Origin: Prevotella sp.
GTDB lineage: Bacteria; Bacteroidota; Bacteroidia; Bacteroidales; Bacteroidaceae
Reading direction: 5' to 3'
NCBI GenBank assembly: GCA_017449025.1
Contig: JAFSKJ010000031.1
Span: forward strand, 1-64,000
Length of the DNA: 64,000 nt
A program made the position numbers and the translations under genes. The notes beneath the pieces are model-generated. The model searched no databases, was not told where the DNA came from, and saw only the letters and a program-made list of their open reading frames with translations. Shown piece by piece: positions 39,032 through 61,385 of this stretch (position 1 is its first letter; the number at the start of each line of letters is the position of its first letter).

Positions 39032-39062
39032 TTTGCCGTTTCATCTTTTTTGTGTATCTTTG
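39032..39062 (+). promoter_or_regulatory. promoter of the dockerin-cohesin gene pair
   Basis: TTTG (39032-39035), a 19-base spacer, then TATCTTTG (39055-39062): a full consensus match. The leader to the first start codon is about 90 bases. Confidence 0.8.
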
Positions 39063-39156: not shown

Positions 39157-39729
39157 ATGGAGACAAAAAGAATTAAGAGATTTGTGATTACTATGATGGC
39201 CGCTGCCATGCTGCTGCCATTACAGGTCTTGGCAGACGGAAATGTCAAGAAGGGTGTTATCATCAACAACATCGATCCCCCCACAGAGAAAGCTGCCACT
39301 CCTACGGCAAGCATCGCCACTGGTACGGAAGTAGAAAAGGGCACAACGGTAACGCTCTCTTGCACCACCGAAGATGCTATCATCTACTACACAACCGACG
39401 GCACCATTCCTACAGAAGACAATACGGCACGCCTGACCTACAGCGAGCCTATTGCCATCAATGCAGATGTTACCCTCAATGTTATGGCTTCAGCTCCCCT
39501 GTTTGCTGACAGTGAAATTGCTACATTTAGTTATACTGTGAAGGCTTCTTCAACATTAGCTGGCGACGTGAACGGTGACGGCGAGGTAAATGGAACTGAC
39601 ATTGTGGCTTTGGTGAACAGAATCATGAACGGTACAGAATACAATGGAAATCCCGACGTGAACGGCGACGGATCTGTTAACGGTACCGACATTGTGGCCT
39701 TGGTTAACATTATCATGGGAAATAATTAA
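39157..39729 (+). CDS. small secreted dockerin-type protein
   Basis: A 190-residue exported protein. Signal peptide about residues 1-27 (MMAAAMLLPLQVLA). A chitobiase-C-terminal-like beta domain (about 45-128) contains IYYTTDGTIPT. Two type I dockerin-like repeats end the protein: GDVNGDGEVNGTDIVALVN and PDVNGDGSVNGTDIVALVN, each with the calcium-loop pattern DxNxDGxxNxxD. There is no catalytic domain, so it could act as an adaptor. The next gene, 15 bases on, encodes two cohesin-like domains and has an almost identical signal peptide. Calcium-dependent docking between the two products is inference. Confidence 0.82.
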   Translation: METKRIKRFVITMMAAAMLLPLQVLADGNVKKGVIINNIDPPTEKAATPTASIATGTEVEKGTTVTLSCTTEDAIIYYTTDGTIPTEDNTARLTYSEPIAINADVTLNVMASAPLFADSEIATFSYTVKASSTLAGDVNGDGEVNGTDIVALVNRIMNGTEYNGNPDVNGDGSVNGTDIVALVNIIMGNN

Positions 39730-39744
39730 TAAAACATTAAGACA

Positions 39745-40770
39745 ATGAAAAGAACAATATTTGCAATGATGGTTGCAGCCATGCTGTTACCGTTGCAGGC
39801 TATGGCAGCTACTCTGAGTGTTGAAAAGTTTGAAATCAGTGAGAATGAGACAAAAGAATTGCTCATCGATGTCAACAACTCGGACATGGAGGTGACAATG
39901 GTGGAATTCTACATGACACTGCCTACAGGCCTGTCAGTTGTCACTGAAGACGACGAACTTGTTGTGGAGATAGCTGGACGTACCACATATAAGAAACATA
40001 GCCTTGAAGCTAAAGTTGAGAATGGTGTCCTGCACGTTCTGCTTTATTCCGGTAGCAACGCTGTATTATCTGGTACTGAGGGTGCTGTAATATCTATTAA
40101 GCTCACAGCAGATCCCAGCTATGCTGGTGGAAAACTTGTTTTCAAGGATCAAGTGCTGACGTCTCCTGACACTAAAGAGAGCAAACCAGCTGAATTTAGC
40201 TACAATCTCAGTGAAGATGAAGTCACCGCTTACCTGAGTCTTGAGAAGTTTGAGATTAATGCTAATGAGACAAAAGAATTGCTCATCGATGTCATCAACA
40301 CCGACATGGAGGTGACAATGGTGGAATTCTTCATGTCAATGCCTTCAGGCTTGACAGTTGCCACCGAAGACGATGAACTTGCTGTTGATATAGCCGGACG
40401 CACCACATATAAGAAACATAGCCTTGAAGCTAAAGTTGAGAATGGTGTCCTGCACGTTCTGCTTTATTCTGGTAGCAACGCTGTATTATCTGGTACTGAG
40501 GGTGCTGTAATATCTATTAAGCTCACAGCAGATGAAAACTATGCAGGCGGAGAACTTGGCTTCAAGAATATTGTCTTGACAGCTCCTGACACAAAAGAGA
40601 GCAAGCCCACTGACTTCAACTACAGTCTTATCGGCGAAGGCACTGGCATCGCTTCTGTCAAGCAGCAGGTAAGCGACAATGCTCCTGTCTACACCCTCGG
40701 CGGCCAGCTCGTTAAGGCTCCCACAAAGGGTATCTACGTAAGCCAGGGCAAGAAGTTTATAGTGAAGTAA
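39745..40770 (+). CDS. secreted protein with two tandem cohesin-like domains
   Basis: A 341-residue exported protein. Signal peptide about residues 1-22 (VAAMLLPLQAMA). Two copies of a beta-sandwich of about 140 residues follow (about 24-163 and 164-303), each with LLIDVxNxDMEVTMVEF and a GTEGAVISIKLTAD strand, a pattern like cohesin domains of scaffoldins. The end (VYTLGGQLV...KGIYVSQGKKFIVK) is the tail shared with other secreted proteins here. A 132-base stretch is identical in both copies but for one base, so the repeat was recently duplicated or homogenised. The assignment is by strand pattern, not by a profile search. Confidence 0.72.
   Translation: MKRTIFAMMVAAMLLPLQAMAATLSVEKFEISENETKELLIDVNNSDMEVTMVEFYMTLPTGLSVVTEDDELVVEIAGRTTYKKHSLEAKVENGVLHVLLYSGSNAVLSGTEGAVISIKLTADPSYAGGKLVFKDQVLTSPDTKESKPAEFSYNLSEDEVTAYLSLEKFEINANETKELLIDVINTDMEVTMVEFFMSMPSGLTVATEDDELAVDIAGRTTYKKHSLEAKVENGVLHVLLYSGSNAVLSGTEGAVISIKLTADENYAGGELGFKNIVLTAPDTKESKPTDFNYSLIGEGTGIASVKQQVSDNAPVYTLGGQLVKAPTKGIYVSQGKKFIVK
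39815..40650 (+). repeat. 420-bp tandem duplication inside the cohesin-like gene
   Basis: Two units of 420 bp. 39982-40113 and 40402-40533 differ by a single base (40050 C, 40470 T), while the flanks of the units have diverged considerably. Confidence 0.9.
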
Positions 40771-40818
40771 AATAATAGTCCTGTGACAGGACATGACATC
40801 GCTACTAATATTTTTTCG

Positions 40819-40846
40819 AGCCGAAAGTGCAAACTTTCGGCTTTTT
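40819..40846 (+). terminator. intrinsic terminator after the cohesin-like gene
   Basis: AGCCGAAAGT-GCAA-ACTTTCGGCT followed by TTTTT: a perfect 10-bp stem with a T-tract, 49 bases after the stop codon. Confidence 0.9.
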
Positions 40847-58623: not shown

Positions 58624-58712
58624 CAACTTTTTTCGATAAAATGTTCAACATCTTGTTTTTTTTCACCATTAAAGTTGCATAAATGATATTTTTTTGCTTA
58701 CTTTGCAAGCCA

Positions 58713-61385
58713 ATGAAGAGAATAACGACTTTCTTCCTCCTGATGCTAAGCACGGGAGGGTATATGGCTGCCCACGATTTGGAGGTCGGGGGTATATATT
58801 ATAATGTGGTGAACCCAGGCGAGTTGTCTGTGACTTCTGGTGAGCGTGCATATATCGGCTCTGTGGCAATTCCGTCGACCGTAGAGGCGAATGGCAACAA
58901 GTACACGGTGACGGCAATTGGCGATGCTGCCTTCTACGGCTGTACGGAGTTGTACGCGCTGACGGTGCCTGCAACGGTGAAAGAGATTGGAAGCGAGGCC
59001 TTTGTGCGCTGCTCCTATCTCATGAGGTTTACCGTTGACCCCGCCAACACTGCCTATTGTGCCCCTGACGGGGTGTTGCTGGACAAGGGCATGAAGCATC
59101 TGGTGGCCTTTCCTGCAGGCTCTTCCACCACCTATAGCATACCTGAAGGCATAGAAACTGTGGACAAGTGGGCCTTCGCCCACTGCAAGCGCCTCTCGGA
59201 GGTTTCATTCCCCGCCTCCTTGCGTAGCATTGCCGACGCTGCCTTCTACGGCTGCACCTCGCTCAACAACTTCAAGCTGCCCAAGCAGCTCGCCAGCATA
59301 GGTGTGTGGGCGTTTTCCGAGTGCTCTAACCTGGGTGAGGTGACGCTGCCTGCCTCCGTGACTAATGTGGGCGACGGTGCCTTTAGCTTCTGTTCGTCGT
59401 TGAAGAACATTTTCGTTGCCAATGGCAACAGCTACTTCACTTCTGTCGACGGGGTGCTCACCGACAGTCAGCACCGCGTGTTGGTAGCCTTCCCTGGAGG
59501 CCGGGGTGGCGACTACCACCTGCCCTCTTCCATAGACTCCGTGAAAACCCAGGCGTTCTATGGTGCTGAGCACCTGCAGACAGTAACTCTACCGGCAAGC
59601 CTTTCTTCGGTCAAAGAGAGTCCGTTTGTGTTCTGTTCCAACCTCAAGGAGATTCTCGTAGACCAGAACAACAGTCAGTACACTTCTCGCGATGGTGTCC
59701 TCTTCAATAAGGATTGTACACAGTTGGTGTTTTTCCCAAATGGCAAGAGTGGCAACTATTCAGTACCCGACGGAGTCAGGGTCCTGAGCCATGGTCCCTT
59801 CCTGTGCAGTACGGCAGTAACGGGCATTGACATTCCAACAAGTGTTACTGCCATCGGCAACTGGACATTCCTGGGGTGTACAGGTCTCAGCGCTGTCAAC
59901 ATTCCTTACTCTGTGACATCCGTAGGCGAGCAGGCTTTCTCTGACTGTCAGTCGTTGCAAACCATTATCTGCAACGGCGAACCCCCAGCAGCGTCGGCAT
60001 TCGACGTGACCACGCAGCAAGGCACCATGCTCTACGTGCCACTTGGGCGCAAGAGCGAATACAAGGGAGCAGACGGATGGGGTAGCATCAGCAGCATTGA
60101 GGAATTCGGACTCTTTGCAGAAAGCCAGTCCATAGAGCGCGGACAGGTCTACAGGGTGCCCGTCTGTGTGACACGCACCATGCCTGTCACATCGGCAATG
60201 ATGGAAGTCACGCTGCCCGAGGGCATTGACATGGTCGCAGACTCGGGCGGCAAACCATTGGTAGAGATAAGCCAGGCAAATGCCAATACCCACACCGTGA
60301 GTTGTGTTGAAAAAGAGAAAGGAACCTTCCTTCTCACTGTCTCACCGTCTAACGACAATGCCGTTGCCACTTCCGACACGCTGCTTTACATGGCGCTGAA
60401 AGCTTCCACCAACATGCCTACAGGTGTCTACGACATTAGCCTGAAGAACCTCAGCTTCACCTACGACACAGGAGCAAACCGCGGCGAGGCACTCCAGGCC
60501 AATGCCATTGCAGGACTCAACATCAAGCTCTTTGTGGGCGATGTGAACAGGAACGGGCGCCTCAATGTGGCCGACGTGGTGGAGAGCGTTCGCTATATCA
60601 ACGGCATTGCCAACGACACATTCCACTTTGAAGAGGCAGACATAAACACCAACGGCGAGGTGAACAACGCCGATGCCGCACTCATAGTTGAGCGAATACA
60701 CGATATGGCTGGTAGAAGCCCACTAATCGTTAACGATATATGGCAGGCCGGCCTTTCCCCATCAAGCGACAATCTTACTGCCACTCCCGTCTCCGCTGAG
60801 GAAGGCAGTGACTTCATGCTTAACATAAACCTTGAAACGCAACATGGCGACCTCACGGCATACCAGTTCATTATGCCCCTGCCCAAGGGCTTCAGCCCGC
60901 GTGCAGATGACATGGGCGCCGTGCGCCCTCAGCTGCCACCACAATATGCCAATAGCGGCTGCTCCGTGTCGGCTACCATTATCCCTAACATCAATAAAAC
61001 CACCTCTTCACAGGGGGAGGAGTCGGGGATGGGGCTTAGTGTCGTGTGCACATCGTCCAGCTTAGCGCCACTCACTAATGGCTTGCTGCTCAGCCTGCCC
61101 ATGACCACCGAGCGCTTTACTCCCCTGGCCGACTATGAGATACCTTTGCAGCAGATAATCTTTGCCGATGTCTACGCCAACGAATACTATCTGGCAGACA
61201 GCAAAGCCAATGTCAAGATTACCGCTGCCGCCGGCATCAGCGACGTCTCCATATCCAGCCACAATGTCGCTGCACCTCCCATCTATGATATTGGCGGTAG
61301 GAAAGTCCACAACCAACAGAATGCCGGAAGAAAGCTCAACAAAGGCGTATATATCATAGAAGGCAAGAAAGTCGTCATCAGATAG
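58713..61385 (+). CDS. BspA-type leucine-rich repeat protein with cohesin-like and dockerin-like modules
   Basis: An 890-residue secreted protein. Signal peptide about residues 1-19. BspA-type (LRR_5) repeats run to about 460, with units such as AFYGCTELYALTVPATVKEI. Next come a cohesin-like beta-sandwich (about 470-610), a dockerin-like pair (GDVNRNGRLNVADVVESVRY and ADINTNGEVNNADAALIVER, about 615-670), a second cohesin-like domain (about 690-840) and the shared tail (IYDIGGRKV...KGVYIIEGKKVVIR). BspA-like proteins bind host proteins or other bacteria. The added modules suggest it can also join a surface assembly; that is inference. ATG 58713 begins the signal peptide. A GC-rich repeat lies inside at 61001-61038. 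Confidence 0.82.
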   Translation: MKRITTFFLLMLSTGGYMAAHDLEVGGIYYNVVNPGELSVTSGERAYIGSVAIPSTVEANGNKYTVTAIGDAAFYGCTELYALTVPATVKEIGSEAFVRCSYLMRFTVDPANTAYCAPDGVLLDKGMKHLVAFPAGSSTTYSIPEGIETVDKWAFAHCKRLSEVSFPASLRSIADAAFYGCTSLNNFKLPKQLASIGVWAFSECSNLGEVTLPASVTNVGDGAFSFCSSLKNIFVANGNSYFTSVDGVLTDSQHRVLVAFPGGRGGDYHLPSSIDSVKTQAFYGAEHLQTVTLPASLSSVKESPFVFCSNLKEILVDQNNSQYTSRDGVLFNKDCTQLVFFPNGKSGNYSVPDGVRVLSHGPFLCSTAVTGIDIPTSVTAIGNWTFLGCTGLSAVNIPYSVTSVGEQAFSDCQSLQTIICNGEPPAASAFDVTTQQGTMLYVPLGRKSEYKGADGWGSISSIEEFGLFAESQSIERGQVYRVPVCVTRTMPVTSAMMEVTLPEGIDMVADSGGKPLVEISQANANTHTVSCVEKEKGTFLLTVSPSNDNAVATSDTLLYMALKASTNMPTGVYDISLKNLSFTYDTGANRGEALQANAIAGLNIKLFVGDVNRNGRLNVADVVESVRYINGIANDTFHFEEADINTNGEVNNADAALIVERIHDMAGRSPLIVNDIWQAGLSPSSDNLTATPVSAEEGSDFMLNINLETQHGDLTAYQFIMPLPKGFSPRADDMGAVRPQLPPQYANSGCSVSATIIPNINKTTSSQGEESGMGLSVVCTSSSLAPLTNGLLLSLPMTTERFTPLADYEIPLQQIIFADVYANEYYLADSKANVKITAAAGISDVSISSHNVAAPPIYDIGGRKVHNQQNAGRKLNKGVYIIEGKKVVIR
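61001..61038 (+). repeat. GC-rich repeat inside the BspA-like gene
   Basis: Contains GGGGAGGAGTCGGGGATGGGG, which matches 17 of 21 positions of the riboswitch-arm repeat at 12283-12303. It reads in frame as SSQGEESGMGLS within the second cohesin-like domain. A related GC-rich stretch follows the gene at 61386-61413. Confidence 0.55.

Follow-up and report, generated by a model that had tools for sequence, protein, structure and literature searches.

On the forward strand of the window (64,000 nucleotides, part of contig C64 of a Prevotella genome, G000, whose assembly comprises 3.5 Mb in 134 contigs and is 80.65% complete) two genes lie in close succession. By open reading frame and Pfam analysis, gene A (39157..39729) encodes 190 residues comprising a signal peptide, a CHB_HEX/Fn3-like domain and a terminal dockerin, without a tail. 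The open reading frame of gene B (39745..40770), which begins in the same frame 15 bases past the stop codon of A, encodes 341 residues with a signal peptide, two cohesins and a tail. A pattern search places a Bacteroidetes-type promoter (TTTG, a spacer, then TATCTTTG) ahead of A at 39032..39062 on the forward strand, a pattern that the window contains seven times where chance would give 0.33. On the 3' side of B, at 40818..40843 on the same strand, is a terminator-like hairpin with an 11-pair stem and a T-run behind it, a signal that is weak alone, as the 2.5-kb region contains five such sites against 2.1 in shuffles. Given the promoter ahead of A and the terminator-like hairpin behind B, the two genes most likely form one transcript. 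The initial annotation had described a promoter-led pair, and both genes and the promoter pattern bear it out; its description of the two signal peptides as almost identical was overstated, since a hand alignment gives 13 of 20 residues in common. The G+C content of the pair is 45.5%, compared with 54.5% for the window, and the pair may on this ground have been acquired from elsewhere.

The dockerin of A occupies residues 135-186 of 190 (39559..39714, forward strand) and contains two DVNGDGxVNGTD repeats. It was recovered in the genome search, and in the Pfam scan PF00404 scores it at 47.6 bits where the cut-off is 22.9 (E 1.9e-12), in agreement with the repeats that had been read from the sequence by eye, and A matches dockerins in the PDB from E 3.8e-8. 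In an AlphaFold model of the dockerin joined to the first cohesin of B, a helix stands, at low confidence, behind each calcium loop. With two 22-residue calcium loop-helix repeats and a profile score above the cut-off, A carries a type I dockerin. Upstream of it, residues 56-123 (39322..39525, forward strand) form a CHB_HEX_C_1 / Fn3_assoc domain (PF13290, E 2.4e-15; PF13287, E 4.2e-12).

Cohesins of the B type

Cohesin 1 of B (39808..40212) and cohesin 2 (40228..40632), both on the forward strand, are identical at 109 of 135 residues. An AlphaFold model of cohesin 1 (pLDDT 92.1, pTM 0.86) has the cohesin beta-sandwich fold, and a structure search with this model, which could have placed the domain in some other beta-sandwich family, returned cohesins as its best matches; the fold of cohesin 2 is inferred from that of cohesin 1. 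The two cohesin-like sandwiches proposed in the initial annotation are supported by these results, and together with the domain matches they uphold its central observation that, outside the Firmicutes, a gene for a dockerin protein adjoins one for a double cohesin. At the DNA level, the middles of the two cohesins (39988-40077 and 40408-40497) consist of two blocks identical at 45 of 45 and 44 of 45 bases, and divergence rises toward both ends, where 32-35 of 45 bases are identical, a pattern such as might be left after recent duplication or gene conversion.

Sequence searches place these domains at a considerable distance from known cohesins. PF00963 does not match protein B, and among 12 aligned domains of the B cohesin type it matches two (best E 1.5e-6); a profile of 15 such domains finds PDB cohesins with a best E of 3.5e-5 for the whole sequence and 0.01 for the best single stretch. 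A phmmer search of the PDB with B at E<=10 gave one chain only, the arabinanase 4kca (E 0.059), with the tail alone aligned. Pfam matches of B to YflT, DUF5001 and others fell below the cut-offs and were taken as chance. Among the closest known systems are the non-cellulosomal cohesins of glycoside hydrolases from Clostridium perfringens, namely NagJ (2jh2, 2w1n) and a family 33 enzyme (2vo8). Those modules are borne by enzymes of a Gram-positive bacterium, whereas here the modules are found on two side-by-side Bacteroidota proteins without a recognised enzyme domain, one of which has a shared C-terminal tail.

In G000 our profile identifies 17 cohesin-like domains, 15 of which went into its building, compared with two identified by Pfam. 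Over the same set of 30 genomes PF00963 gives 18 matches and our profile 65, or 16 and 48, respectively, when the genome used to build the profile is left out; some Pfam cohesin matches, for example in G021 and G022, are in turn missed by our profile. A scan of genome contigs with protein B alone found no relative, and one with a five-domain alignment found six loci, in metagenome-assembled genomes titled Prevotellaceae (five) or Prevotella (one).

Bin49, a rumen Bacteroidetes genome, is reported to contain 11 dockerins and 0 cohesins (PMC6071333), and in another set of rumen bins cohesins are described from Firmicutes_A only (PMC9177762). Dockerins have been noted in Prevotella metagenome-assembled genomes (PMC7480376), cohesins in certain Bacteroidetes (PMC6071333), and both modules have been assigned to rumen Bacteroidetes (PMC6071333, PMC4035507). 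Since cohesins and dockerins have already been reported from rumen Bacteroidetes, the modules themselves are not new; the new point is the layout, a dockerin and then a cohesin, in the next gene or in the same protein. The titles, abstract openings and passages of the literature that we covered, which do not include Peer et al. 2009, contain no adjacent dockerin-cohesin gene pairs in Bacteroidota and no mention of a cohesin family missed by Pfam or of a division between proteins with and without tails.

Recurrence of the dockerin-then-cohesin layout

Pfam identifies ten dockerins in G000, eight of which have a cohesin-like domain less than 1 kb downstream on the same strand, where 0.024 are expected; all eight cohesin-like domains are within 170 bases, in the next gene or in the same protein. 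Across 30 genomes, 19 of 122 dockerins have a downstream cohesin within 1 kb against 0.25 expected, an excess of about 76-fold relative to a random-placement model to which the parts of secreted proteins do not strictly conform. Each of the eight genomes holding both modules has at least one adjacent case, and the share of adjacent dockerins in individual genomes is, for example, 2/37 in G001, 2/38 in G020 and 2/17 in G009. This 30-genome census is the only sample unbiased for adjacency, because most other loci were fetched for holding a cohesin. Of 200 genomes sampled separately from the genus, ten, including G000, contain a match to protein B at E<=1e-15. Outside G000 these correspond to 11 distinct loci, and in ten of them a dockerin lies next to the cohesins or between them within short flanks; the short flanks of the remaining locus (L092, in G113) contain no dockerin, and one of the ten (G208:C24) is apparently the same as L047, with an identical dockerin sequence and an equally long contig.

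We also observed that a contig of G000 (L040 2154-7190, G000:C112) and one of G001 (L071 1-5037, G001:C8) have 5037 bases in common at 99.98% identity, including a dockerin-cohesin pair. The two assemblies are of different species, and the shared stretch either was transferred recently or sits on a contig assigned to the wrong bin; of the two G001 pairs, one is therefore not independent. The M6 peptidase gene on this stretch loses its frame ahead of its dockerin part.

The 37 pairs collected take two forms. In 17 of them (window 58683, L037, L039, L044, L046-L049, L072, L075, L077, L081, L088, L089, L091, L094 and L101) a single protein contains a dockerin, then one or two cohesins, then a tail, the last recognised by a strict motif in nine of the 12 tested and by eye in the others. 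Four (L047, L048, L049 and L088) have the order dockerin-cohesin-cohesin, an order that in the window is divided between A and B, and L047 has RCC1 repeats between the cohesins and the tail. In the two-gene form (20 of 37 pairs) the dockerin is terminal, with no more than 25 residues left, in 16 cases. The partners of these 16 have a tail, judged by eye, in 11 cases, the strict motif catching five of the 13 partners tested; of the others, three end in a dockerin (L045, L075, L090), one is lipoprotein-like (L085) and one is neither (L040). The cohesin begins at most 71 residues into the open frame of the partner in 15 of the 16, and at residue 388 in L045. By eye, three loci from three genomes (L050, L093, L095) have a similar first protein of about 400 residues and the same split.

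Longer arrangements of the modules are also found. At 58683-61385 on the forward strand, the window itself encodes a 900-residue protein with BspA-type leucine-rich repeats (LRRs), a cohesin-like domain, a dockerin, a second cohesin-like domain and a B-like tail in one chain. Adaptor-like chains, in which a dockerin gene is followed by a gene for one or more cohesins with a terminal dockerin and then, in L075 and L080, by a cohesin-plus-tail gene, occur at L075 12702-15237 (G009), L080 3225-9699 (G014) and L090 1312-3860 (G128).

The notion that a terminal dockerin always has a cohesin next door was rejected. Of 64 dockerins in three relatives (G001, G009 and G013), 55 have no cohesin detected within 1 kb (one broken match being omitted), and 42 of these 55 are also terminal; a dockerin protein without a tail can therefore occur with no adjacent gene for a partner. 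Among the 55, L157 is followed by a weak cohesin-like domain, and in L114 a cohesin-like domain precedes the dockerin in the same protein. The 42 unpaired terminal dockerins must use cohesins encoded elsewhere, cohesins missed by the profile, or something else. Internal dockerins of G001 (L103, L105, L112, L117, L124 and L130) are followed by some 210-235 residues with a common end motif, VRPV.P or VRAVLP, a different C-terminal module.

Co-variation of dockerins and adjacent cohesins

Mantel tests on identity distances, comparing dockerins with the next cohesin, gave r 0.71 for the 37 pairs and 0.55 for the 20 two-gene pairs (p 2e-4 in each case, the smallest value that 5,000 shuffles can give), and r 0.59 and 0.42 for 28 pairs and 16 two-gene pairs, respectively (p 5e-5 in each case, the smallest for 20,000 shuffles); for the eight G000 pairs r was 0.44 (p 0.01). 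L071, as a copy of L040, was left out of these tests, and L092, which has no dockerin in its flanks, and the repeats L097-L100 and L102 (L097 and L100 being repeats of L047) lie outside the 37 pairs. The tail served as a control in 20 of the 28 pairs, the eight whose partner lacks the tail motif being omitted: the correlation between dockerin and tail was 0.21 (p 0.04), that between cohesin and tail 0.42, and that between dockerin and cohesin given the tail 0.72. For the ten two-gene pairs among them the dockerin-tail correlation was -0.09 and the dockerin-cohesin correlation given the tail 0.45 (p 0.002), while for the ten one-gene pairs the dockerin-tail correlation was 0.57. For the G-type dockerins taken alone r falls to 0.32 (p 0.12), and for the remaining ones to 0.17 (p 0.04), and we conclude from this that much of the co-variation lies between the window type and the rest. 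The weak subsets, the cohesin-tail correlation of 0.42 and the one-gene dockerin-tail correlation of 0.57 together indicate that linked descent explains part of it. The co-variation fits matched specificities, and the pairs lack phylogenetic independence. An RT motif in the cohesin accompanies G-x recognition residues in 11 of 14 pairs, against 0 of the other 23; because these motifs were chosen after looking and at least two pairs are misassigned (L080, L089), nothing was rested on this rule.

The same data bear on the view that the two modules do not bind each other, the cohesin-like sandwich acting as an adhesive domain or passive stalk while the dockerin forms a calcium-stabilised C-terminal cap, with both travelling together only because surface-protein parts are shuffled. 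The joined AlphaFold model agrees with such a view insofar as it has no docking signal (pTM 0.57, with the dockerin at a pLDDT of about 60, from five sequences), as do the many terminal dockerins without a neighbouring cohesin and the part of the co-variation that linked descent could give. We nevertheless consider it improbable, given that the fold is that of dockerin-binding cohesins, that the co-variation persists with the tail held constant, and that the two-gene form keeps the pair together across a gene border in many genomes.

Client proteins, tails and attachment to the surface

Genes for a GH43 enzyme, a GDSL esterase and a pectinesterase lie just downstream of the pair; the initial annotation had proposed that A and B form a minimal surface scaffold, in effect a small cellulosome, that could hold these pectin enzymes or further dockerin proteins of the genome. 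We found no Pfam dockerin match in any of the three, and the esterase and pectinesterase have tails of their own, of the same kind. The initial annotation had also suggested listing the dockerin proteins of the genome; there are ten matches, and in the proteins of the eight that were scanned no glycoside hydrolase, polysaccharide lyase or carbohydrate esterase family exceeds its Pfam cut-off. That the pair serves the pectin enzymes is accordingly very unlikely, barring a contact that does not involve a dockerin. Nor does the locus resemble a cellulosome in other respects: B consists of two cohesins and a tail with no CBM match, where a scaffoldin would combine cohesins with a CBM, and no dockerin-bearing carbohydrate-active enzyme was found among eight of the ten dockerin proteins and the three pectin genes of an assembly that is 80.65% complete. 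The cellulosomes of Clostridium and Ruminococcus, with their type I-III cohesin-dockerin interactions, are built from the same module families and presumably share the binding principle; unlike them, the locus described here consists of a single dockerin gene adjoining a single gene with two cohesins; we found no CBM, nor any carbohydrate-active enzyme with a dockerin among the eight of ten scanned.

The scanned dockerin proteins of G000 instead carry BspA-type LRRs, InlB-type repeats, a C10 peptidase, the CHB_HEX domain or nothing assigned. Elsewhere, dockerin and cohesin proteins carry BspA-type LRR, InlB-type or MBG repeats or a C10 peptidase, and a piece of an M6 peptidase gene adjoins one of them. 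As these repeats and peptidases occur on the dockerin and cohesin proteins or beside them, the associated domains point to putative roles in adhesion and proteolysis rather than in pectin breakdown.

The tail of B (40633..40767, forward strand), which the initial annotation had flagged as a possible sorting tail, is by sequence matches common to many G000 proteins, with 33 further places in the genome matching at E<=0.05. The presence of a shared tail is thereby confirmed; its assignment to the type IX secretion system (T9SS) is inferred, since the T9SS tail model TIGR04183 does not match it. G000 does encode the T9SS translocon protein SprA (gene sprA; TIGR04189, 2656 bits). Protein A and the other terminal-dockerin proteins lack a B-like tail.

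From these observations, we hypothesize that A and B are probably a co-transcribed dockerin-cohesin pair, amounting to one surface protein made in two pieces, in which B tethers A. B would be exported and anchored through its C-terminal tail, and the dockerin of A would plug, with calcium, into one of the cohesins of B. In this way A, having a signal peptide and no tail, would be kept at the cell surface by B. With two cohesins, one molecule of B could take two copies of A, or A together with another dockerin protein. The second option borders on another explanation, in which B is a small general scaffold whose cohesins collect several dockerin proteins, for instance the LRR/C10-peptidase protein encoded on contig C50, and A is one client among them. 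The two cohesins of B are in keeping with this, as is the fact that A and the C50 protein both have a dockerin of the G-T type and closely similar cohesins; moreover, Ruminococcus albus is thought to anchor many dockerin enzymes by a single cohesin (PMC6118326). A general scaffold seems unlikely to us, however, as eight of the ten G000 dockerins already adjoin a cohesin-like domain and other loci have different residues at the G-T places. As in R. albus, the cohesin would act as a surface tether rather than as a large scaffold, with the difference that there one cohesin serves many enzymes (PMC6118326), whereas here most G000 dockerins have a private neighbour.

In G020, a genome from another family of the order with 38 dockerin matches, seven proteins were scanned (loci L083 8477-19738, L084 3622-14934, L085 5775-8935, L158 and L159, with cohesin-like domains and peptidases). 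Three C25 peptidases, one C10 and one S8 peptidase end in a dockerin, and an M14 peptidase has a dockerin together with a Por_Secre_tail; a five-cohesin protein also carries a Por_Secre_tail (PF18962), and proteins with eight and seven cohesins end in tails that are similar by eye. The set looks like a possible protein-degrading counterpart of the cellulosome in a Bacteroidales relative. Candidatus Stygibacter (Cloacimonadota) is similar in that it has C-terminal-dockerin enzymes, C25 and S8 peptidases included, and a cohesin protein whose C-terminal domain is said to attach to the cell surface; it differs in having one 3,755-residue scaffoldin with tandem cohesins and CBMs, and the parts of that report considered here describe no gene-by-gene pairing (PMC8542988).

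The dockerin-ended peptidases and tailed multi-cohesin proteins of G020 suggest that a dockerin may stand where a sorting tail would. It is conceivable, although we hold this with little confidence, that the dockerin replaces the T9SS sorting tail, with a tail-less protein binding the tailed cohesin protein of the next gene in the periplasm and crossing the outer membrane as its passenger.

A cohesin family mostly missed by the Pfam model adjoins part of the Bacteroidota dockerins, which offers a testable answer to what some of these dockerins bind, as well as natural candidate dockerin-cohesin pairs on which protein engineering could draw, and may link cohesin-dockerin binding to export by the T9SS. 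If the passenger route were true, cohesin-dockerin pairing would serve Bacteroidota as a hitch-hiking system for export and anchoring, arranged in gene pairs, which would include the adaptor chains of dockerin gene, cohesin-plus-dockerin gene and cohesin-plus-tail gene (L075) and the dockerin-ended C25, C10 and S8 peptidases that G020 encodes beside tailed multi-cohesin proteins.
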